Shown here one piece after another: positions 4,007 to 24,350 of a stretch of 54,834 nt of DNA. The position numbers and the translations under genes were made by a program. A model generated the notes under the pieces. The model was not told the DNA's origin and ran no database searches. It saw only the letters and a program-made list of their open reading frames with translations. This DNA is from Candidatus Poseidonia sp. (GTDB lineage Archaea > Thermoplasmatota > Poseidoniia > Poseidoniales > Poseidoniaceae), in contig JAUREJ010000012.1 of NCBI GenBank assembly GCA_030827475.1, forward strand, positions 1 through 54,834, given 5' to 3'. How positions within the stretch are numbered: the first letter of the stretch is position 1; every line of letters begins with the position of its first letter.

Positions 4007-5764
4007 ATGGAACTGCTCAAGGCAAACGTCATCACGCTGGTGGAGGCAGCCTTGGAGGCCATCGGAGGTGACGGGAAACTCGTCAAAAGCGTGCTTCAAC
4101 CCGCACGAGAAGCCGACCAAGGTGACTTGACGCTCCCTTGTTTTCCATTTGCAAAAGCCTTGAGAAAATCGCCGCTGAGCATCGCAGAAGAACTTTGTGC
4201 AACGATGGAGCCCCACGAAAGCATCGGTGAAATACACGCCGTGAACGGCTACCTCAACATCCGAGTGAACCCCGTGTGGCTCGCCAAACACTTGCTCTCG
4301 GTTGGGGTTGACAACGGCATGGAGAAACCCAAACGTAGCGTTTTGATCGAGCACACATCGGCAAACCCCAACGGCCCCTTCCACGTCGGGAGAGCGAGAA
4401 ACGCCATTCTCGGTGATACTTTGGTCCGCTTGCACCGGTTGTGGGGCAACGAGGTCATGGCAGAATATTACGTCGACGATATGGGGAAGCAAGTCGCCGT
4501 CCTGGCGTGGGCATTGAACGCTCTCAGCCGAGAAGAGGTCGAGGCCTTGCTCGAAGGACGGGACCCTCCCAACCCGCTCTGGGCAACCAAGCCCGACCAC
4601 CAACATGTCCGGTGGTACCAAGCCGCACAACTTCTCAGGAAGGAAAGCGAACAATCCACCGAGATTGAGAAAGCCATCGGCGCACTGGTTCACGCAAGTG
4701 AAAACGGTGATGAAGCCGTGCTCAAATCGTTTGAAGCGGCCTATCAACCCGTTCTCGACGGCATGCTCACCACGCTCGGCCGCCTCGGCATCACCTATGA
4801 CCGCTTCACCAAAGAATCGGTGTTTGTAACCAACGGGGATGTCGCCTCTCTGATGGAGGAATTGGGAACCTTACCCATCAGCAAACACGCTGAGAACGGT
4901 GCACAATTCCTTGATTTGGGTGAGCGAGGGCTCAAGGGCAAAACCGAATTTTTCTATCGAAGAGGAGACGGATCCTCGCTTTACGCCACGAGAGACATCG
5001 CCTACCATCGGTGGAAATGGACCCAGAGCAACGAACTCATCAACGTCCTTGGTGAGGACCACAAACTGCAAGCCCAGCAGGTGGGGTTGACGCTTGAAGA
5101 GTTGGGGGAGCGCCGACCGGAAGTCATGTTCTACTCGTTCATCAAACTCCCCGAAGGGAAGATGTCGACCCGTCGAGGGAACGTGGTGTTCATGGACGAC
5201 CTGCTCGAAGAAGCGAAGGCTCAGGCCGCTGCCGTGGTGAACGAACGCCGACCGGATTACGACGAGGAAACCGTGGCGACCATCGCAGAGGCTGTTGGAA
5301 CTTCAGCCGTCCGATTCAACATCGTCAACGTCAGCCCGGAGAAAGGATTCACGTTCAGGTGGGAAGATGCGCTCAGCTTTGAAGCGGGCTCTGCACCCTT
5401 CGTCATGTACAGCCACACCCGTGCATGCTCCATTCTTCGAAACGTCCAGCAACACCTTGGCACGAACCAACAAGCGCCAGAATACACCATCAACACGACC
5501 ATGCCCGACGGGCTGGTTCAACTTCTGCGAACGCTTGCTCTGCACGATGATTGTCTTGAGAAAGTCATTCGCGAACATCGCCCCCACCTCTTTGCAGAGT
5601 ACATCCTCCAACTCTCCAATGCGTACAATGGATTCTATAGAGACTGTCATGTCATAGAGGGCGGTGAGGTCAACGGCTTCTACTTCGCAGTTTCTGAACT
5701 TGCACGTCAAACCCTCAACAGGGGCATGGAAGCCTTGGGGATTGAGCCGCTGGAAACCATGTGA
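4007..5764 (+). CDS. argS: Arginyl-tRNA synthetase (class I)
   Basis: Charges tRNA-Arg. 585 residues, typical length. The N-terminal additive domain (about 1-100) is followed by the Rossmann catalytic domain with the HIGH-type motif NPNGPFHVGRARNAILGD at about 118-135 and the KMSKS-type loop GKMSTRRGNVV at about 384-394. The alpha-helical DALR anticodon-binding domain forms the C-terminus, ending in the family-like ALGIEPLETM. A GAGGTGG ribosome binding site precedes the ATG, 9 nt after prf1. Its TGA abuts the stop codon of the convergent GTPase gene with no spacer (TGATCA at 5762-5767). Confidence 0.97.
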   Translation: MELLKANVITLVEAALEAIGGDGKLVKSVLQPAREADQGDLTLPCFPFAKALRKSPLSIAEELCATMEPHESIGEIHAVNGYLNIRVNPVWLAKHLLSVGVDNGMEKPKRSVLIEHTSANPNGPFHVGRARNAILGDTLVRLHRLWGNEVMAEYYVDDMGKQVAVLAWALNALSREEVEALLEGRDPPNPLWATKPDHQHVRWYQAAQLLRKESEQSTEIEKAIGALVHASENGDEAVLKSFEAAYQPVLDGMLTTLGRLGITYDRFTKESVFVTNGDVASLMEELGTLPISKHAENGAQFLDLGERGLKGKTEFFYRRGDGSSLYATRDIAYHRWKWTQSNELINVLGEDHKLQAQQVGLTLEELGERRPEVMFYSFIKLPEGKMSTRRGNVVFMDDLLEEAKAQAAAVVNERRPDYDEETVATIAEAVGTSAVRFNIVNVSPEKGFTFRWEDALSFEAGSAPFVMYSHTRACSILRNVQQHLGTNQQAPEYTINTTMPDGLVQLLRTLALHDDCLEKVIREHRPHLFAEYILQLSNAYNGFYRDCHVIEGGEVNGFYFAVSELARQTLNRGMEALGIEPLETM

Positions 5765-7432: not shown

Positions 7433-7687
7433 ATGCTGCACGCCCCAGAGAACTGGAGCGTCATCGAAGGCCGCCTCATGCGGGAATTTGCCTTCCCGAA
7501 CTTCGACGAAGCAAAAGCCTTCATCGACCGAGTGAGTGAACTTTGCAACGTGTTGGACCATCACGCAGAGTTGCACTTTGGATGGGGTTACGCCGTGGTT
7601 GAAACGTTCACACACGACACCCAAAGCATCACCAAACGGGATGTTGACCTCGCTCAGGCCATCAACGAGATGGAGGCAGGAGCATGA
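7433..7687 (+). CDS. phhB: Pterin-4a-carbinolamine dehydratase
   Basis: Dehydrates 4a-hydroxytetrahydropterins; in organisms without aromatic hydroxylases, related proteins support pterin or molybdopterin handling. 84 residues, slightly short for the family. The fold signature is complete: W at position 8, FPNFDEAKAFIDRVSEL helix, the active-site DHHAELHFGWGYAVV with paired histidines, then ETFTHDTQSITKRDVDLA, matching the family pattern HH..V....TH....T..D..LA. Its start follows the previous TGA by 1 nt, and its last 4 nt overlap the next start (ATGA), implying translational coupling. A role near the folate genes at 36.6-37.9 kb is possible but not shown. Confidence 0.85.
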   Translation: MLHAPENWSVIEGRLMREFAFPNFDEAKAFIDRVSELCNVLDHHAELHFGWGYAVVETFTHDTQSITKRDVDLAQAINEMEAGA

Positions 7688-8435: not shown

Positions 8436-8532
8436 GATTCACGCCCACGATACCCCCCTTCAAGACTTTCCCTCAGCACATCGGAACAGGAAAGCATTGA
8501 TGAGCGGGCTTCAGCAGGCAAGATTGACGACC

Positions 8533-15261: not shown

Positions 15262-18200
15262 TTATTGGTAGGGGTTTTCACCGGGCGAAACAGCCGTTTC
15301 AGCCACCCCATAAGGCCCGCTGGGAGGTTGAGCGGCGGGCAGTGCCTCCACAACCTTGGTTGGCGGAAGGCGATTCAGTTGAACTGGAACGGTTGGTTGG
15401 CGCCGTAAACCGAAGACGAGCAAACCAACAAGCGCTAAGACCAGCAAGCCAACAACCGAAATCAAAACGGGATTCACCGACCCGATCGTCCCGAGCACAC
15501 CATCGCTGCGTGCATCATCGACGAAAATGGTAGGGGATTGGGTACCGGGCCCGTTGATGACGCTCAATTCCAACCATTGAGTTCCCACCCGCCCGGGTTT
15601 CCAAAGGTATTGATACAGAACCTGCTCGCCTGATTGGACGTTCATCGTTCGAGCATCAAGACGGGTTCTTGCTCCGCTCGATTCCACCAATTCAAGGACC
15701 ATGTTGGCCTCTCCATCGGCAAGACCAACGTTGCTCAACATGGCGACGACCTCGACGAGGTCGCCTTGGCGAACATCGGATTTCTGCTTCATTTCAACGG
15801 TCGATAGCGTGAACTCGGGAATCCTTTGCTCGAGCGACCACACACGGAGGGGAGCATCGATGTCGTTGAAGACGCTGTTGATGCTCAAGCCGGCTTCGTC
15901 GGAACCCGTGACCCAAACCCGAAGCTCAACAGCACGCGTCCGGAAAGCGGGCAGCATCAATGCGTCAAGATCCAGCGAGCATTGAACGGGAACCGATTCA
16001 CCGTTGAGACGCTCACCCATCAACGTCAACGGTACCGAACCGTTGTCGAACACATAGGAATTCAATCCGAGCCCGGCTTCGTTCAAGGACCAATGCAGCA
16101 TGAGGCTTGCCTCATCCAACTGAGCGTTCTCTGCAAGTCTGAGTTCGAATTTCAAATCCTTCCACTCATCCTCGGCCAAACGGGAATTGAAACCAGGTTG
16201 GTCAACAGCAACAACTCGGGGGGCTTCATTGTCAACGATGAACCAGACAAAGGCTGAGTTTTCACCCCGATAGACTGCACCGTTCGGAGCATCAAATAAG
16301 GCACCAAACAACCCGTACGCACCGTCTTGAAGCGGAGCGAGTAAGGTGCCTTCGAACGAACCGTTCACGGATTCAAGTTCAACCGTGTTTTCTCCCAATG
16401 AGAGTTCAATGCTCAAGTCTTGCTGTGGGACGCTGCCTGTCCGGTACCAGACAAGGTCTCCTGTAACACCAAAGGTGGTTCGGGGTTGAACCCAGTAACC
16501 CAGCGCAGTGGAGACCTCATCGTCGAGGTCGACACGAATCGATGTCGGGTCAATGGCCAATTCACCCGAGAAGCGCCATCCAAGAGGCTCAATGAGGAAC
16601 ATGTTGGATTGGCCCGATTGGTCTTGCATCGTCAGTTGGGGTATTCGGGTCAAGGAGGTGTCCGGGTCGTAACCCCACTCAAAGGTGAAATTCACAACAA
16701 ATTCCCCGTTCCTTGAGAACACATCGCCGGCCTCCAAGGCCACCAATTCACACGAGGAAATTTCGATGTACGCGTGCGAGGATTCACAATTCCCGGTTGT
16801 CTGGTTCCAGGTCACAGCGGAGGACCGCGCGGTATTTGAGGCGAGATCAAGTTCAATTTCAGCCAAATCAAAAATCCCGTTTTGCTCCCAAACGGGGACA
16901 CGGATTTGGTTTTCCTCGCCGGGATGAAACCATGGCTCCACTTGACCGTCTGGCCACCCGAGCGAGCTTGCTCCAAGAGAAGGAGCACCGTTGCTGTTGA
17001 GTTGGACATGGAACATGGGAGCACTCGGAGAGCCGCCGTCCTCCATGAGATGTCCCGCACTGTCGGCGATTTCAAGCCAACCAAGGAGATAGTCACCCTC
17101 CGAAGCTTCGGAGGTGTCAACCGACAAGCCGTAATCACCCATCAAAGCGGTAAGGTTCGCCGGTAATGAGAGGGCACTCATGCGCTCTTCACCGTAGTCA
17201 AACACACCATTCGCGTTTTCATCGTCCATCCAAGAGGTCCAAACATTCGCAACCGCATGCACAGGGAGATGGGGCCGGTCTGCGATGGTGAAGGTGAAGT
17301 CGTTCACCGGCTGAACGTCACGGTTGTCAAAAGCGCCGACGCTACTGAGCATGAGGGTTGGTGCAACGTTATCAAACAGGAAGCGATGTTCCATGGAAAC
17401 ATCGCTGACCACACTTTGACCCCTGAGCGGAACGACTTCGATGCTCAAGTCAATGGATGGACGGCCGGTCGGCACGTTCCATGCAAATTGAGCAACACCG
17501 TTGTTGAGAAGGGTGGTCGTTGCGTATTCCGTTCCGTCCACGAGGAAGCGCACAAGCGCCTGGCCCGAGCGGGGGGTGCCTTCATCGGTTCCTTCAAAAC
17601 CCAACACGACCTCAATTACAACCAACTCGCCAGAACGCAAGTAAGGGAATGCTGGCGATGAACGGATGCCTTCATCGGAGACAACGGACCAAGATTCGAT
17701 TTCGAGGTCGTTCTCAACCCCTTGGTCTGCACCGAGGCCAAGTACGGTTGATACGGGGAGCATTGGACCGCTTGCTGAGATGAGGTGAACGGTCAGCACT
17801 GCAGACGGTTCATCGTCCCAACCGTCTGGGAATTTGAACCGGTGTCCAACCTCAAGATACGTCCCCGAACCTACCGCTGAGATCGACCCTGCAAGACCTT
17901 CGTCAAACCAGAGGAGTGCGGTACCCGATGCCGAACAGCTGGAGATGGTCACCGGCGTCACCGGCAAGCTTTGTACGGGACACCGAAGGAGTGAACGCTG
18001 ACGCTGACCAACAAGTTGCAACTCAACTTCCCATGAGGACTGCTGTGCATGCGTCAATGCATCGGCGACGTTGAGTGGTGAGAAGTCAAACGTGCTTCGA
18101 GTCTCGACCCACTCGTTCCCGGGCACGAGGGTGTCGCTCACGTTCACGAGTTCCAAGGTGAGCGGTTTCACGGAGGTCTGAGTCTCGAGGTTATTCACGG

Positions 18201-20286
18201 CGAGGTAAACCGAACCGGTTCCGTCCATGCGAACCGGCAGCGTCACCGTGCGTTGGCCTTGAACGGAAACGACGTTAGCAAGTGCGTGATTCAACCCCAT
18301 CACGAGCGGGGTTGCTGCGTTCAGGCTCAAATTGAGAGGTGTTGCATACGGTGCAAAAACACCCCCGAAGTGCAGTTGAGAAGTGCTCAAGGAAGAACCG
18401 ATGCGAAGTTCAACCGTTGCCATCGGCAAATCGGGGATACCGAGGGTGTTGCTGGCTTGGACGAGGGCGTCGTTCAGCGTCTGCAATTCGCTTGACGTCA
18501 ATCGCACCTCAACCATGTCGTTGATGTTGGCAAGGTTTCGACTCAAAATGTCTTGGCCGTTCACGGCGACAGCAAGGAAAGGGTTTGCGATGGGCCCCGT
18601 CGGGGAGGCAACTGCAAAGGAAAAAGCATCAACACCCCGGGTGGGCAAAGCCACCTCAAAGGAGGCGGTCGCTGCAGGTGCAATTGAACGCTCCACCCAT
18701 TCTTCCCCAGACACAAGGGTGTGCTGAAGACCGAATGCTCCCATGGCGTTTCGGTCCATTGACCACTCTGCGGTTCCGTCCATGCCGACGTCCATACGAA
18801 GGCCACTAACAACCGAAGTGCGGACCAACTCAACCTCAAACGACTGCCAGGTGAAGGTTCCTCCCGTCGAATCCATTCGAAATTGAACGGAAAAGGCAGG
18901 CTCATCCAACGGCAGCCGCTCTTGGGCCCCGATAGCCTGCCAGCTCATTCCACCGTCCGTGGAAAATTCGAGCACACCAGGCCCCGTATGAACGCTGTTG
19001 GCCTGAAGGGCGGAAAAGCCGCTACGAACATCGTATCTGTTTGAAAGAACAACACCGGAGGAAGAGATCGCCCCGTTGGCCCATGAACCGCCTTGGATTT
19101 GCCAGCCTTCAGCAGTGGGGTCGGTGGTGAAGGATTTTGAAATCAAGCCGTTGTGGGAGAGACTCCGAATCTCGGCCCCTCCGCCGGACGCTGCCTCCTT
19201 CATGTGGATTTTTAGCCGAAGCAGAGGATGTTGTTCTTCGTCGATCATTCCCAAATCCACATACGGCAGGGTCAACCTCTCGAATCCTGGGACCGGCGTG
19301 GATGTCTGGGCGTCCAAGATTTGGTACTCAAACACGGATCCAGGTAGGTCCATCAAGTCCATGTGAAGCAGCCCGTGTTTGGTGGATTCACCTCTTCCAA
19401 GCAACGAGGGGCCGAAGATATCGGAGGTCCAATTCCCTTCGCCGTTCCCTGACCCTGCAGTCGGTGTGATCTGGATGTTGTCCACCCACGCCGTGTCCGA
19501 CCCTGTGTTGACGCTTCCATCCTTGGTGTACTTCCAAGTAAGGGTTTGCGCACTGGCCGGGAAGGAGAAGGTCTGTGTTCCGGAGGTCGTGCCGGACCAT
19601 CGGTTGGCGTAACCGCTCGTGCGGCTGCACCCGGTGTTGTCAATGCAAAAGACAAGGTAGTCAAAACTCGACTCGGAGGAAACTCTGTATTGGAAGGTTC
19701 CCGTGGAGGCAGGGAGTTGGGAGACGTCAAGGGTCATCACGGATTGTTGGTTATGGGAAATGGACCCGGCTCTCGCCCATTGGAGACCCTGCAGGGTGCT
19801 GCCAGTTTGGATCGCCCAATTTGATGACCCGCTCAGCGTCCAATCCGATGAAAATGTTCCTGACTCGAAGTCGTAAACCCAATCTTGAGGAAGCAATTTG
19901 AGTTCGGAGGTGTTGACATCCATCCCGTCGTAAACGGCATTGGCGTCAAAATCCCCGGCATTGGTCATGCTGGAAGCGATTGAGTTGGTGAGGGTGCTCG
20001 CCTCCAACGCGAGGTCCAACGATTTGATAGCGTGTCCATCGGGAACGGTGAGTTGAACACGTTGGTTCGCACCGTCCGGCCAAGAACCAACGGTAAGCTT
20101 GGTCGACTGGCCGATTGGTGTCACCCTGTGAACGGAGGATGAGACTTCCGCCTGAGACGGTGCGATATCAACGGGGAGGGTTGAGATGAACAGCAGAACG
20201 ACGAGCGCGACGCTCATGCTGGCCTTGGACGCCGCTGGACCCATCGTTCCTTGACGGCTTGTTGAAGGTCTAAAGGCTTCGGACAT
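15262..20286 (-). CDS. Very large secreted, membrane-anchored surface protein
   Basis: About 1,674 residues from the ATG at 20286, which has GAGAGGACAGG just upstream; a further in-frame ATG lies 11 codons earlier. An N-terminal signal segment (SVALVVLLFISTLPVDIA, ending near a SQAEV cleavage-like site) leads to a long extracellular region built of beta-rich modules: an early jelly-roll-like module with two cysteines (CIDNTGC), many Ig/CARDB-like strands, and a final CARDB-like module with LVEVVAMLSNVGLADGEANM. One C-terminal helix (VLISVVGLLVLALVGLLVFG) and a short Pro-rich cytoplasmic tail follow. No catalytic motif is evident; adhesion or cell-envelope structure is the plausible role. It lies just upstream of rnpB on the same strand. 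Confidence 0.8.
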   Translation of the reverse strand: MSEAFRPSTSRQGTMGPAASKASMSVALVVLLFISTLPVDIAPSQAEVSSSVHRVTPIGQSTKLTVGSWPDGANQRVQLTVPDGHAIKSLDLALEASTLTNSIASSMTNAGDFDANAVYDGMDVNTSELKLLPQDWVYDFESGTFSSDWTLSGSSNWAIQTGSTLQGLQWARAGSISHNQQSVMTLDVSQLPASTGTFQYRVSSESSFDYLVFCIDNTGCSRTSGYANRWSGTTSGTQTFSFPASAQTLTWKYTKDGSVNTGSDTAWVDNIQITPTAGSGNGEGNWTSDIFGPSLLGRGESTKHGLLHMDLMDLPGSVFEYQILDAQTSTPVPGFERLTLPYVDLGMIDEEQHPLLRLKIHMKEAASGGGAEIRSLSHNGLISKSFTTDPTAEGWQIQGGSWANGAISSSGVVLSNRYDVRSGFSALQANSVHTGPGVLEFSTDGGMSWQAIGAQERLPLDEPAFSVQFRMDSTGGTFTWQSFEVELVRTSVVSGLRMDVGMDGTAEWSMDRNAMGAFGLQHTLVSGEEWVERSIAPAATASFEVALPTRGVDAFSFAVASPTGPIANPFLAVAVNGQDILSRNLANINDMVEVRLTSSELQTLNDALVQASNTLGIPDLPMATVELRIGSSLSTSQLHFGGVFAPYATPLNLSLNAATPLVMGLNHALANVVSVQGQRTVTLPVRMDGTGSVYLAVNNLETQTSVKPLTLELVNVSDTLVPGNEWVETRSTFDFSPLNVADALTHAQQSSWEVELQLVGQRQRSLLRCPVQSLPVTPVTISSCSASGTALLWFDEGLAGSISAVGSGTYLEVGHRFKFPDGWDDEPSAVLTVHLISASGPMLPVSTVLGLGADQGVENDLEIESWSVVSDEGIRSSPAFPYLRSGELVVIEVVLGFEGTDEGTPRSGQALVRFLVDGTEYATTTLLNNGVAQFAWNVPTGRPSIDLSIEVVPLRGQSVVSDVSMEHRFLFDNVAPTLMLSSVGAFDNRDVQPVNDFTFTIADRPHLPVHAVANVWTSWMDDENANGVFDYGEERMSALSLPANLTALMGDYGLSVDTSEASEGDYLLGWLEIADSAGHLMEDGGSPSAPMFHVQLNSNGAPSLGASSLGWPDGQVEPWFHPGEENQIRVPVWEQNGIFDLAEIELDLASNTARSSAVTWNQTTGNCESSHAYIEISSCELVALEAGDVFSRNGEFVVNFTFEWGYDPDTSLTRIPQLTMQDQSGQSNMFLIEPLGWRFSGELAIDPTSIRVDLDDEVSTALGYWVQPRTTFGVTGDLVWYRTGSVPQQDLSIELSLGENTVELESVNGSFEGTLLAPLQDGAYGLFGALFDAPNGAVYRGENSAFVWFIVDNEAPRVVAVDQPGFNSRLAEDEWKDLKFELRLAENAQLDEASLMLHWSLNEAGLGLNSYVFDNGSVPLTLMGERLNGESVPVQCSLDLDALMLPAFRTRAVELRVWVTGSDEAGLSINSVFNDIDAPLRVWSLEQRIPEFTLSTVEMKQKSDVRQGDLVEVVAMLSNVGLADGEANMVLELVESSGARTRLDARTMNVQSGEQVLYQYLWKPGRVGTQWLELSVINGPGTQSPTIFVDDARSDGVLGTIGSVNPVLISVVGLLVLALVGLLVFGLRRQPTVPVQLNRLPPTKVVEALPAAQPPSGPYGVAETAVSPGENPYQ

Positions 20287-20344
20287 CCTGTCCTCTCGGT
20301 GTCTTGAGCGAAAGTCCATAGATGGCGACCCTTGATGACCTCAC

Positions 20345-21034
20345 ATGGATGTGGAATCGCTCAAACAAGAAGCGGGTGTTGCCGCCTGTGCTTACGTCAA
20401 CGACGGGATGAATGTTGGCCTGGGGACCGGCTCTACCGTGAAATACACCATCATTGAACTCGGGCGCCGAGTGACCGAGGAAGGCTTGAGCATCGTCGGC
20501 GTACCGACCTCGCTTGCCACCGAAGAACTCGCCCGCTCCGTCGGCATACCGCTTGCCGAACTTGACACGTTGAACATGCTGGATGTTGTGATCGATGGAA
20601 CCGATGAGTTTGACCCGCAATTCAACCTGATCAAAGGTGGAGGAGCCGCCTTGTTGCGTGAAAAAATCGTCGCCCAAGCGTCAAAAAAGATGGTTGTCGT
20701 GGCCGATGCAAGGAAACAAGTTGAACACCTCGGTGCGTTTCCTTTACCAGTAGAAATCACGTGTTTCTCGTGGGCAACCACCAAGAGAAGTATCGAAAAA
20801 GTCCTGAATTGTTTAACCTCTCGCCGCATGAACGGAGATGAGCCGCTGAAGACCGACAACGGGAATTTCATCATCGATGCACAAACCGGACCAAACATCC
20901 ACGACCCCGCAGAGACCGAACGCCAACTTTTGGCTCTCGCTGGAGTTGTGCAAGTGGGATTGTTCAACGGGATGTGCGATGTCGTCATTCTCGCCAGGGA
21001 CGATGGCGTGGAAATCTTGACAAAAGAAGATTGA
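20345..21034 (+). CDS. rpiA: Ribose-5-phosphate isomerase A
   Basis: Interconverts ribose 5-phosphate and ribulose 5-phosphate, supplying ribose for nucleotide synthesis. 229 residues, typical for RpiA. Signatures: NVGLGTGSTVKYTI (phosphate-binding GTGST), VPTSLATEELARSVGIPL, the catalytic VIDGTDEFDPQFNLIKGGG and ALLREKIVA, and the C-terminal LFNGMCDVVILA matching the family G.F....D. It runs divergently from the giant surface-protein gene (58 nt between starts) and is followed by tRNA-Lys, which has its own TATA-like box. Confidence 0.96.
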   Translation: MDVESLKQEAGVAACAYVNDGMNVGLGTGSTVKYTIIELGRRVTEEGLSIVGVPTSLATEELARSVGIPLAELDTLNMLDVVIDGTDEFDPQFNLIKGGGAALLREKIVAQASKKMVVVADARKQVEHLGAFPLPVEITCFSWATTKRSIEKVLNCLTSRRMNGDEPLKTDNGNFIIDAQTGPNIHDPAETERQLLALAGVVQVGLFNGMCDVVILARDDGVEILTKED

Positions 21035-21090: not shown

Positions 21091-21164
21091 GGGCCTGTAG
21101 CTTAGTCAGGTAGAGCGATGGACTCTTAATCCATCGGTCGCGGGTTCGAACCCCGTCAGGCCCG
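21091..21164 (+). tRNA. tRNA-Lys (anticodon CTT)
   Basis: Cloverleaf seen directly: acceptor GGGCCTG pairs with CAGGCCC (21157-21163) with discriminator G at 21164; D arm around GTAGCTTAGTCAGG; anticodon stem ATGGA/TCCAT closing the 7-nt loop CTCTTAA, so the anticodon is CTT; T arm CGGGT-TCGAACC-CCG type with the GGTTCGAACC core. No CCA is encoded. No intron. The last 9 nt overlap, on the opposite strand, the 3' end of the sodX coding region. Confidence 0.96.
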
Positions 21165-21467
21165 CTTCACTTCGCCGGTCCACCTTCCCAGAACCGACCG
21201 TTTGCGCACCGGACCAAAATTATGGGAATCCTCGGTGGCGGTCGGGTCAGGCTGGTCCCCGACAAGGAAAACGTCCCCGCTTTCGAGAATCCGATGAACA
21301 CGCTTCACCACCAACACCTTTGCTTTGAGTGGGTGGTGGGCAAGGACCACATCACCAGGGACCAACGCATCGTTCTCGTCCAACGGGTGGAAGAAAAGCA
21401 CATCTCCGTTACGAAATGTCGGCCACATGCTGTCGCCTTGGAGAACGACCTCCAAAGGCGAGGTCAT
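21156..21467 (-). CDS. sodX: Ni-superoxide dismutase maturation protease (S26/S24-type)
   Basis: 103-residue serine protease of the signal-peptidase/LexA fold. The catalytic Ser13 is in LQGDSMWPTFRNGD and the general-base Lys55 in VLVVKRVHRI; a third conserved piece is FLVGDQPDPTATEDSHNFGPV. There is no membrane segment, as expected of the soluble SodX group that trims the propeptide of Ni-SOD. It follows sodN by 9 nt on the same strand, which is the usual partner arrangement and is the main reason for the specific call. Its last three codons lie inside the 3' end of tRNA-Lys on the other strand. Confidence 0.88.
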   Translation of the reverse strand: MTSPLEVVLQGDSMWPTFRNGDVLFFHPLDENDALVPGDVVLAHHPLKAKVLVVKRVHRILESGDVFLVGDQPDPTATEDSHNFGPVRKRSVLGRWTGEVKRA

Positions 21468-21476
21468 TTGATGACC

Positions 21477-21917
21477 TCAAGATGCTCGGATCCAAGACAC
21501 TTCTCGGCCTTTGACCGACCAGAACATCTCGTGGATGGACTGGCAGGCATCCATCAATTCTTGAGCGTGTTCGGCGGAGACTTCGACTTTGCATGCAGAA
21601 CAAAGTTTAGCAGCGTGCCAGAAGGTTTCGTGAAGGTCAGGAATGGATTCAAGATGCTGGGGTTTGAAGAAATCCGTCCAGAGCACAAGCAGTTCATCCT
21701 TGCAGGTTTGAGCCTCCTCTTCCTTGATGGCGGCGTAGCGGGCCATGGTGTTCAAGTAAGCCGCCATGGCACCGGCATCTTCTGCATTTGGTGGCGTGAG
21801 CGCGAGCATTTTTTTGGTCATGGATTGAACAGCTTCGGCTGCGATTCGGGCACTTGCAGGGTCGTAAACGCCGCAAGGACCGTCGCAGTGGGCTTCAGCA
21901 ACGATGGGGGTCTTCAT
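21477..21917 (-). CDS. sodN: Nickel-type superoxide dismutase
   Basis: Converts superoxide to oxygen and hydrogen peroxide using a single Ni. About 146 residues from the ATG at 21917. A nine-residue propeptide (MKTPIVAEA) precedes HCDGPCGVYDPASARIAAEA: His10, Cys11 and Cys15 become His1, Cys2 and Cys6, the complete Ni hook, once the propeptide is removed. The remainder is the expected four-helix bundle, here with four further residues of interest (CKDEL, LCSAC). HCDGPCG with DPASARI is the form I associate with marine cyanobacteria; the actinobacterial form has HCDLPCG. The next gene encodes the matching protease. A TATA-like box lies 26 nt before the ATG, so the operon probably has its own promoter. 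Confidence 0.93.
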   Translation of the reverse strand: MKTPIVAEAHCDGPCGVYDPASARIAAEAVQSMTKKMLALTPPNAEDAGAMAAYLNTMARYAAIKEEEAQTCKDELLVLWTDFFKPQHLESIPDLHETFWHAAKLCSACKVEVSAEHAQELMDACQSIHEMFWSVKGREVSWIRAS

Positions 21918-21968: not shown

Positions 21969-22874
21969 TTATGCGGAGGTGACTGTCGTGCCGCTCTCAC
22001 CCCGGAGAGCACGCAGCACCTCTCCTGGGCAGCAGAGTATTGACTTCTTTTCTGACCGGGACACGAACTCCCGCAAAGCCCGTACTTTCGGCCCCATAGA
22101 ACCTGGCGGAAAATGGCCCTCCTTTTCGAGGGCAAGCAGATTCTCGACTGACAGTGTTCGGTGCGCTACTTGATGCTCAGTGCCAAAATTCGAATAGATC
22201 GCATCGGCACCCGTGCTGATGATAAGGGCATCAGCGTTCAGGTCAGAAGCAAGACACGACGAGAACAGGTCCTTGTCCACGACGGCAGGTACGCCGCGAG
22301 CGAATCCATCCCCGGACACGATAGGAATGCCCCCGCCCCCTCCACAGATCACCACCGCTTGCAGTGAAACGAGGTGCCGAATCACATCGATTTCGACCAC
22401 ACGAACCGGGGCCGGGCTTGCTACAACGCGCCGGGCGCCGTGAATCGTTTGGGCAATGTCCCAATCGGCCGACATCACGGTGGCTGCATCCAGCACGGGA
22501 CCAACAGGTTTTGTCGGCAAAGAAAACCCCTCATCGTCGGCGTCAACCTCCGTGTGCGTGAGGACGACAACCGTACGCTCAGGCCGGCGACGTCGCTCGA
22601 GAATGCTCTGAAGGTGAAGAGAGAGTTGGTGACCGATGGTCCCTTGCGTGGCGGCCACCCAAGCATCCAAACCATGAGATCGGTCGCGGTCGAGAGCCAA
22701 AAAGTGACCAACTTGTGGCCCGTTACCGTGTGTCACAACGACGCCCCAATCCATCTCCAGAAGATCGACCACATCGCTCATCACCTTGGCCAAAACGCTG
22801 GCTGTTTCTTCCTTGTCACCGTCCGGCGTTTGAAGCGCGTTTCCCCCCAAGGCGTAAACCGCCAACTTGCTCAT
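21969..22874 (-). CDS. arcC: Carbamate kinase-like amino-acid kinase
   Basis: About 301 residues from the ATG at 22874 (MSKLAVYALGGNALQ). Amino-acid-kinase fold with the carbamate kinase signatures: ALGGNAL at the N-terminus, VVTHGNGPQVGHF, ATQGTIGHQL, VICGGGGGIPIV and a C-terminal GSMGPKVRALREFV. Family members interconvert carbamoyl phosphate and ADP with carbamate and ATP, mostly in arginine, agmatine or purine breakdown. No deiminase or transcarbamylase genes are nearby, so its pathway here is open. It is divergent from asnS and lies upstream of sodN on the same strand. Confidence 0.9.
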   Translation of the reverse strand: MSKLAVYALGGNALQTPDGDKEETASVLAKVMSDVVDLLEMDWGVVVTHGNGPQVGHFLALDRDRSHGLDAWVAATQGTIGHQLSLHLQSILERRRRPERTVVVLTHTEVDADDEGFSLPTKPVGPVLDAATVMSADWDIAQTIHGARRVVASPAPVRVVEIDVIRHLVSLQAVVICGGGGGIPIVSGDGFARGVPAVVDKDLFSSCLASDLNADALIISTGADAIYSNFGTEHQVAHRTLSVENLLALEKEGHFPPGSMGPKVRALREFVSRSEKKSILCCPGEVLRALRGESGTTVTSA

Positions 22875-23000
22875 GTTGTGCTTTCCTTTTCCGTTGGCTT
22901 TGACCCTTTGGACAACTTGAATCAGCGATGACCTCGTTTTGCAACGTATTGGAGGGAGACATTCACATAGGCAAGCGAGGTCCCTTTGAACGGTGCGAAC

Positions 23001-24350
23001 ATGGTCAAGACCGTTTGGATAGGTGATGTGCAAAAAGGCATGCACGATGCCACATCCGTGGAACTCAAGGGGTGGGTCAAGCGCGCCCGAGGAAGCAACA
23101 AAATTCGTTTTGTGGTGCTACGGGACTCCACCGGAACCATCCAGTGCGTCGGCAAGCGAGAGACTCTCGGCGACGAAATGTTTGACTTGTTGAAGAGCAT
23201 GATCATCGAAACCAGCGTTATCTTCCATGGAAGCGTCCGAGTCGACGAGCGGGCAGAGGGCGGCCATGAGCTTGACATCACACAAGTTGAACTCGTCGGA
23301 GCCGTCAATTCCGAGCGTCCATTCCCCATCACTGAGGCGGACATGCTGGTTGAAGACGAAGATGGAGAACTCACCTACGGTGGAACCGAACACACCCTCA
23401 ATCACCGCCATCTCTACTTGCGAACAACCCGAGCGACGACGATGCTCAAATTGAGAAGTTCGGCTTTTGGGGCCATCCATGGCTATTTCAGAGGTCACGA
23501 CTTCCTTGAATACCAAGCCCCAAACTTCGTTGCAGGTGCTGTTGAGGGCGGCTCCACCCTTTTCGAGGTCCCGTACTTCGGGAAACAGGCCTATCTTACC
23601 CAATCATGGCAGTTGTACGCTGAAGCCGCTATGCCCGCCTTGGAACGCTTGTACACGATCGCACCCTCCTTCCGAGCTGAAAAATCGAGAACTCGTCGTC
23701 ATTTGACCGAGTTTTGGCATGCCGAGATGGAGATGGCCTGGGCGACCAACAACGACATCATGCAACACGGTGAAGGCGTGGTCCGACACATTGCTCAAAC
23801 GCTTTTGGAGGAACGTGAGCAAGAACTCACTTATCTCGAACGTGACTTGGAGATGATTGCGAGGTACGCAGATAACCCATACCCGAGAATGCGATACGAT
23901 GAAGCGATTGAGACGTTGCAAGCAAAAGGGTTGAAGGTCGAATGGGGCCAAGATTTGGACTACTCAAAAGAAAAAGTTCTCACTCAAGATTTTGATGTTC
24001 CGCATTTCTTGACCCATTATCCGAAAGTGGCCAAACCCTTCTACCATCGCGTCGACCCAGAAGATGAGAAGTACGTTCTTTGCCATGACTTGCTGGCACC
24101 CGAAGGATACGGAGAAATCATCGGAGGTGGTGAGCGTACGTGGTCTGAAGAAGAAATTCTCAAACGAATCGACGAAGAAGGCACACCCCGTGAACCGTAC
24201 CAGTTCTACATCGATGTCAGGTCCTACGGCGGTGTTCCACACGGTGGATTCGGCTTGGGCGTGGATCGGGTCGTCAGTTGGCTGGCAGGAGCCACGCACA
24301 TCCGCGAAGTGATTCCTTTTCCACGAACCTCCCGCCGCGTAACGCCCTAG
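23001..24350 (+). CDS. asnS: Asparaginyl-tRNA synthetase (class II)
   Basis: About 449 residues from the ATG at 23001; a TTG five codons upstream is possible. An OB-fold anticodon domain (about 1-110, ELKGWVKRARGSNKIRFVVL) precedes the class II core: motif 2 FRAEKSRTRRHLTEFWHAEME, and motif 3 GGFGLGVDRVVSWLAG ending in VIPFPRT. The active-site segment CHDLLAPEGYGEIIGGGER is of the AsnRS type (GEIIGG), not the AspRS GMEISSG type, so direct asparaginylation is expected. The final TAG overlaps the stop of the convergent small zinc-ribbon gene by 3 nt. Confidence 0.93.
   Translation: MVKTVWIGDVQKGMHDATSVELKGWVKRARGSNKIRFVVLRDSTGTIQCVGKRETLGDEMFDLLKSMIIETSVIFHGSVRVDERAEGGHELDITQVELVGAVNSERPFPITEADMLVEDEDGELTYGGTEHTLNHRHLYLRTTRATTMLKLRSSAFGAIHGYFRGHDFLEYQAPNFVAGAVEGGSTLFEVPYFGKQAYLTQSWQLYAEAAMPALERLYTIAPSFRAEKSRTRRHLTEFWHAEMEMAWATNNDIMQHGEGVVRHIAQTLLEEREQELTYLERDLEMIARYADNPYPRMRYDEAIETLQAKGLKVEWGQDLDYSKEKVLTQDFDVPHFLTHYPKVAKPFYHRVDPEDEKYVLCHDLLAPEGYGEIIGGGERTWSEEEILKRIDEEGTPREPYQFYIDVRSYGGVPHGGFGLGVDRVVSWLAGATHIREVIPFPRTSRRVTP

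Follow-up and report, generated by a model that had tools for sequence, protein, structure and literature searches.

Nickel and iron/manganese superoxide dismutase genes were found to take turns at shared intergenic slots in marine archaea of the class Poseidoniia, where the Ni superoxide dismutase (NiSOD) gene sodN travels with sodX, the predicted gene of its maturation protease. This pattern of Ni versus Fe/Mn succession between the same neighbors is well supported. Taken as a whole, the explanation that we consider probable is a cyanobacterial-type NiSOD pair that forms a mobile two-gene cassette and stands in succession with Fe/MnSOD. We also lean, by a small measure, to the wider reading that fixed SOD slots have been used independently by marine archaea and picocyanobacteria, with Ni/Fe-Mn succession after lateral transfer within each group, and with the metal of SOD being switched locally and repeatedly. 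The analysis started from one such pair in the window, which is the whole stretch of 54,834 nucleotides under study.

Both genes of the pair in the window are on the minus strand. The sodN gene (21477-21917, with its ATG at 21917) encodes a precursor of 146 aa, which showed 154.8 bits against PF09055 in the profile search and 185 bits against the NCBIfam equivalog TIGR02753, whose cut-off is 90. The sodX gene (21156-21467) encodes an S26-type protease of 103 aa, with 35.2 bits against PF10502 and 70.8 bits against the equivalog TIGR02754 (sod_Ni_protease; cut-off, 63.25). Homology predicts that SodN is a NiSOD and SodX its propeptide protease. The nickel hook, His10-Cys11-Asp-Gly-Pro-Cys15 (21873-21890), matches the start of the solved NiSOD chains: the alignment of the Streptomyces enzymes (1q0d and 1t6u) with SodN starts at the hook His, with a best phmmer E-value of 3.5e-23. 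The complete set of ligands (His10, Cys11, and Cys15) described in the initial annotation is thus present. The propeptide of nine residues given there (21891-21917, the putatively cleaved part) is obtained from the nearest ATG, but there are three in-frame start codons before the hook His, and the propeptide may consist of 9, 13, or 20 residues. A fold model of SodN was all-helical but had a pLDDT of 55 and a TM of 0.37; its best Foldseek matches in the PDB were NiSODs. Ser13 (21429-21431) and Lys55 (21303-21305) of SodX are the protease Ser/Lys. The most hydrophobic stretch of 19 residues in SodX has a Kyte-Doolittle mean of only 1.03, so that a soluble SodX is reasonable, and the earlier description of a soluble S26-type protease 9 nt after sodN agrees with these values. 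The 9-nt gap (21468-21476) suggests that sodN and sodX are read as one transcription unit. By homology with known systems, SodX would remove the short propeptide of the SodN precursor, after which the freed N-terminal His and the two Cys residues would bind Ni and dismute superoxide.

The contig that carries the pair is archaeal, with genes for aCPSF1 (TIGR03675, 806 bits), an archaeal LysRS (TIGR00467), and ribosomal protein S3Ae. As both proteins passed their NCBIfam cut-offs, the first reading of the window, a NiSOD gene with a dedicated protease in an archaeon, is confirmed. One border of the pair is a tRNA-Lys(CTT) gene (21091-21165, plus strand), which adjoins the ribose-5-phosphate isomerase A gene rpiA (20345-21034, plus strand; PF06026, 206.2 bits). 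The other border is a carbamate-kinase-like gene (21969-22904, minus strand; PF00696), whose 265.9 bits against TIGR00746 are below the cut-off of 358. An asparagine--tRNA ligase gene (22995-24350, plus strand; NF003037, 435.8 bits versus 414) is a further conserved flank. Beyond rpiA, the window encodes a 1685-aa protein without a Pfam match (15262-20319), a relative of which is found there in some loci of two genera, g1 and g2. The insertion abuts the tRNA gene: sodX and tRNA-Lys, which lie on opposite strands, share 10 nt (21156-21165) at their 3′ ends.

The location between the carbamate-kinase-like gene and tRNA-Lys/rpiA is that of sodNX in g1 and g2. The kinase flanks sodNX in 24 of the 71 class loci, all of which belong to one of these two genera. 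Fifteen other genomes have the kinase gene; ten of them (from g3, g4, g7, g8, g9, g11, and g17) show the kinase, tRNA-Lys, and rpiA genes as neighbors without sodNX, and in the remaining five, at least one of tRNA-Lys and rpiA was not observed. Since the same neighbors occur elsewhere without sodNX, the window pair is an insertion that is common to two genera. Genes for tRNA were also observed near sodNX in g4 (tRNA-Met) and in g5 and g6 (tRNA-Ala) at L117, L201, L202, and L205-L207.

Next, the distribution of SOD genes in the class was analyzed. The window genome (87% complete) has one sodN, and neither an Fe/MnSOD nor a Cu/Zn SOD match was found in it. NiSOD is therefore the only SOD found in this genome. 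A scan of other genomes of the class, which had been recommended for the pair, detected SodN (PF09055) in 176 of 292 genomes, comprising 15 of 25 genera in two families, a spread that points to a long presence of the gene in the class. In all 71 class loci read, sodX is directly downstream of sodN on the same strand. The hook is HCDGPCG in 70 of them and HCDAPCG in one, such that loss of the His/Cys ligands, which would have spoken against the annotation, was seen in none of these relatives. The catalytic Ser of SodX is conserved in 71/71 loci and the Lys in 70/71, with the alignment of the last one being unreadable at this residue. Fe/MnSOD was found in 74/292 genomes, and both SOD types occur in both families. 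However, only one genome of 292 (G233) contains both SodN and Fe/MnSOD, versus 44.6 expected under independence, an illustrative number that ignores the kinship of the genomes. On the tree of flanking genes, the Fe contig of G233 groups with genus g14, pointing to a mixed bin. Most of the sampled class genomes are incomplete bins; two SOD contigs in one bin were observed for G233 (L251 and L252), G262 (L282 and L283), and G285 (L302 and L303). No SodT was found beside the archaeal pair or in any of the 30 class genomes tested (E-value of 0.001), while the two cyanobacterial genomes searched alongside did match. NicO, as a candidate Ni importer, was above the cut-off in 0/30 class genomes.

The SodN of the class has the cyanobacterial form of the hook and not the actinobacterial HCDLPCG, as proposed initially: HCDGPCG is shared with 116/116 cyanobacterial loci, a count from which one divergent second cyanobacterial copy (HCQLPCG) was set aside. 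A CSAC motif is present in 112/116 cyanobacterial loci, and class SodN likewise contains CSAC and a C-terminal AS. In other families of the phylum, SodN reads HCD(I/Y/V)PCGIY in 13/13 cases, all without CSAC. An S26-type protease gene was observed near these other-family sodN genes (L173-L185); in 10 of the 13 loci, the two genes are on different strands. The mean identity of class SodN was 0.66 to large-genome cyanobacteria, 0.63 to picocyanobacteria, 0.37-0.38 to Actinobacteria, and 0.28 to the other families of the phylum.

Trees were calculated from an SodN alignment with 137 usable columns, in which few other bacterial phyla were represented and Deltaproteobacteria were absent. The 101-row tree was obtained by identity thinning from 205 SodN sequences; the 94-row tree left out L192, a long branch, and 6 of the 13 other-family rows; a third tree contained 57 rows. 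As shown, class SodN formed one clade in all three (97/81 with 101 rows, 100/99 with 94 rows, and 93/99 with 57 rows). SodN as one old archaeal family, with class SodN and the other SodN of the phylum in one clade, was rejected on the 57 thinned rows (p-AU 0.0155). Class SodN and the remaining SodN of the phylum are separate lineages, and a position of class SodN deep among archaeal sequences, which the initial annotation had named as contrary evidence, was not obtained. On the 94 rows, two groupings of class SodN were not rejected: with the large-genome cyanobacteria (p 0.56) and with Actinobacteria (p 0.305). The main basis for the suggested cyanobacterial affinity of class SodN is accordingly its identity values and shared motifs, with the tree tests contributing less. 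The SodX tree, calculated without L205 and with rows longer than 75 residues only, was weak: the class was recovered at 72/57, a union of archaeal SodX was not rejected (p 0.323), and the tree is too weak to show co-transfer of sodX with sodN. As for a carrier of the pair, no relative was found in viral contigs by tblastn and none in phage records, and the only plasmid records with an SodN relative were from Nonomuraea and Novosphingobium. Interdomain transfer of sodN has reportedly been discussed by Sutherland et al. in 2021.

The two SOD types alternate at slot 1, which lies between F7, a divergent 2-hydroxyacid dehydrogenase gene (PF02826/PF00389), and F6, a membrane protein gene. In family f2, Fe/MnSOD is between F7 and F6 in 52/52 loci; these represent 51 of 53 f2 genomes having Fe/MnSOD. 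At the same place, sodN-sodX is found in 12 genomes of g15, 3 of g17, and 4 of g19, as well as in 3 genomes of g9, which belongs to family f1. The pair is inverted in the slot in 2 bins of g13, and it is beside F7 in 8 genomes of g20; of these, G065 alone showed F6, at a distance of 2.8 kb. Five genera hold both slot states, Ni and Fe/MnSOD. Unlike the tRNA-side sites in g1, g2, g4, g5, and g6, slot 1 has no tRNA gene. The F6 product (L239, 8311-9414; 368 aa) is conserved beside the slot and has no Pfam or NCBIfam match. Of the 48 f2 genomes with sodN in the sample, 41 were examined, and 12 of these 41 carry the pair, as far as seen, outside slot 1, with neither flank there; in 8 of the 12, the F7-F6 pair was found elsewhere and was empty. 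A further sodNX site outside slot 1 is common to g13 (G054) and g20 (G073), at L227 and L236. When 25 chosen genomes were searched, F6 was found in 22. Slot 1 was empty in 19 of the 22, including the window genome, with F7 and F6 as neighbors less than 180 nt apart and the SOD gene elsewhere. The other three were G149, with a Ni-filled slot, and G065 and G022, with no F7 in the stretch.

To count the changes at slot 1, an F7+F6 tree of 81 loci, including 30 of the 52 f2 Fe loci, was calculated under the LG+G4 model. Frame families such as F0, F14, and F21, some of whose frames are antisense, were not counted as genes. Genera with at least two rows were recovered except for g13 and g14, which were broken only by the G233 Fe contig falling in g14. 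On this tree, a minimum of 11 changes among four states is needed to account for slot content, and a minimum of 7 for Fe versus not-Fe within f2. A comparison within g17 of L231 (Ni) and L240 (Fe) showed that DNA similarity stops at 7577/8389 and resumes at 8466/7623, with the breakpoints each within ~100 nt of the SOD genes. The g17 Fe alleles nest inside the Ni alleles on the flank tree.

A second shared slot was found in g5. Here, Fe/MnSOD (G022 and G047) or sodNX (G151 and G264) lies between a conserved block on one side and tRNA-Ala(CGC) on the other, and the two occupants have opposite reading directions. Between G022 and G151, the block shows ~70% DNA identity over 6.3 kb and the tRNA-Ala gene 98.8%. 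In the SodN+SodX tree (62 rows), the in-slot pair of g17, a genus of f2, groups with genera of f1 at 97/98. A single clade of the f2 sodNX located in the slot was rejected (p-AU 0.00016), and so was one clade of all f2 sodNX (p-AU 0.019); both tests were chosen after the tree was seen. The rejection of one f2 clade, together with the position of g17, favors more than one lateral entry over the sorting of an ancestral tandem; the in-slot sodNX entered more than once. Among the f1 relatives of the g17 pair, sodNX occupies other sites, and no direct donor with matching flanks was identified.

Picocyanobacteria, a second and distant group, show the same alternation of Ni and Fe/Mn. An FKBP gene (PF00254) is directly upstream of sodN in 80/80 picocyanobacterial loci, the best 80 among the matches listed. 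In the family of a marine Synechococcus, Fe/MnSOD is present in 44 of the 121 genomes searched. This FKBP gene and queA flank one of its copies in 40 of these genomes; of the remaining four, two have FKBP alone in the stretch, and two have queA alone. The sodNX pair has queA downstream in L056, L065, and L082, and in the other 77 of the 80 loci queA is not in the stretch. Two loci, L033 (Synechococcus sp. UW140) and L053 (Synechococcus sp. UW105), have partial Fe/MnSOD matches just beyond sodN-sodX-sodT (4618-4912 and 4663-5025, respectively), at the place where relatives carry Fe/MnSOD. One of these pieces lacks its first half and is in two frames, and one lacks its last third; in both loci, the resident Fe/MnSOD apparently decayed next to the incoming pair. 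The large-genome cyanobacterium L189 has an almost complete Fe/MnSOD match in the vicinity of sodN. SodN was present in 44/292 cyanobacterial genomes sampled, small-genome and large-genome alike. In the small-genome loci, of which some may be from the same species, sodX is directly downstream of sodN on the same strand (107/107), and it is not beside sodN in 4/9 large-genome loci. As far as the available text goes, replacement of FeSOD by NiSOD in picocyanobacteria was described without its place being given (PMC4890579), and sodT was described with sodN and sodX (PMC4284471). An account of the shared Fe/MnSOD-sodNX locus was not found in the literature searched, which consisted largely of papers outside subscription.

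From these observations, we propose that sodN-sodX would act as a self-sufficient two-gene SOD cassette, which takes several intergenic sites and may move laterally between lineages, and that at two sites sodNX and the non-homologous Fe/MnSOD probably succeeded one another between the same neighbors. Succession at one site implies that a genome keeps one SOD. A likely route would be that the newcomer inserted beside the resident SOD, which was then lost, and this fits the broken Fe/MnSOD pieces beside sodNX in the two cyanobacteria; metal supply may have been the selective cause. A long-lived ancestral tandem of sodNX and Fe/MnSOD in the slot, of which descendants lost either member, would explain the shared slot without repeated targeting and the presence of both SODs in both families, and side-by-side states do exist in cyanobacteria (nearly full-length in L189, pieces in L033 and L053). 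Such differential loss is nevertheless unlikely, given that both SODs co-occur only in the apparently mixed bin, that the orientation varies (inverted in g13), that the g17 Fe alleles are nested in Ni alleles while the g17 pair goes with the other family, and that a single origin of in-slot f2 sodNX was rejected. Moreover, a search for remnants at an E-value of 0.01 detected none of Fe/MnSOD in 130 archaeal loci that are Ni-filled or empty and none of SodN or SodX in 55 Fe loci. That the alternation is an artefact of binning or assembly is hardly credible: the bins are incomplete and G233 looks like real mixing, but SOD and flanks are on one contig of up to 191 kb (G043), the flank genes cluster by genus with similarity on both sides of SOD, and the same pattern is seen in picocyanobacteria, including the one-long-contig genomes G856 and G848.

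Concerning the source of the pair, we propose that it entered the class ancestor from, or in common with, a cyanobacterial lineage. The initial annotation favored transfer from marine picocyanobacteria, and a recent transfer of this kind would account for the same hook form, the CSAC motif, and the C-terminal AS, which most picocyanobacteria have; the 94-row tree also joins the class with picocyanobacteria (32/91). This join is not a supported one, however, and class SodN fell inside picocyanobacteria in none of the three trees. Picocyanobacterial SodN formed its own clade in the 101-row tree (99/97), did so weakly in the 94-row tree (33/95), and was open in the 57-row tree. As the identity is also no higher than to large-genome cyanobacteria, the gene is spread over 15/25 class genera, and SodT was not found, this part of the annotation was not supported, and a recent picocyanobacterial donor is very improbable. 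A reversed direction, from archaea to cyanobacteria, or a third bacterial donor to both is a possibility of more weight, though still doubtful. Cyanobacteria alone as a clade were not rejected (p-AU 0.286, 94 rows), the text available from Qu et al. (2023; PMC10783094) states that the reverse direction cannot be excluded, and that of PMC8346466 links most cyanobacterial NiSOD to Deltaproteobacteria, naming them as relatives of the cyanobacterial form. On the other side, the occurrence of the form in small- and large-genome cyanobacteria suggests a long history there, which does not by itself set the root.

The enzyme in the window is a known one, and it is the pattern around the pair that would matter. 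If unrelated SOD genes repeatedly succeeded one another at fixed loci, individual loci would record the metal history of ocean microbes, and more events, of a more local kind, would have to be assumed when the SOD history of these archaea is reconstructed. The empty, Ni, inverted Ni, and Fe/Mn states between the same two genes make the exchange route directly testable.

NiSOD in Marine Group II (MGII) and its cyanobacterial affinity are already published. The accessible text of PMC10783094 reports NiSOD in MGII with Cyanobacteria as the sister group and only one of NiSOD and Fe/MnSOD in most MGII clades, which is the same enzyme, the same sister group, and the same one-SOD pattern as described here; it makes no mention of gene neighborhood, synteny, flanks, or signal peptidase, and the shared slots and the changes of site are added by the present analysis. 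The multi-site sodNX cassette and the succession of Ni and Fe/Mn at shared slots are apparently undescribed for these archaea. Compared with cyanobacterial NiSOD and SodX, the archaeal proteins share HCDGPCG, CSAC, the C-terminal AS, the sodN-sodX order, and the protease Ser/Lys, whereas the host is an archaeon and the sodT of the cyanobacterial sodN-sodX-sodT cassette was not found in the 30 class genomes. The Streptomyces NiSOD is homologous, but it has HCDLPCG, lacks CSAC, and shows a mean identity of 0.37 to the class. Finally, the slots resemble gene displacement in situ, in which a gene is likewise replaced within conserved neighbors. To our knowledge, cases of such displacement concern homologues. 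In contrast, the alternatives at these slots are unrelated proteins of one function, with more than one change between them and with an empty state as well.
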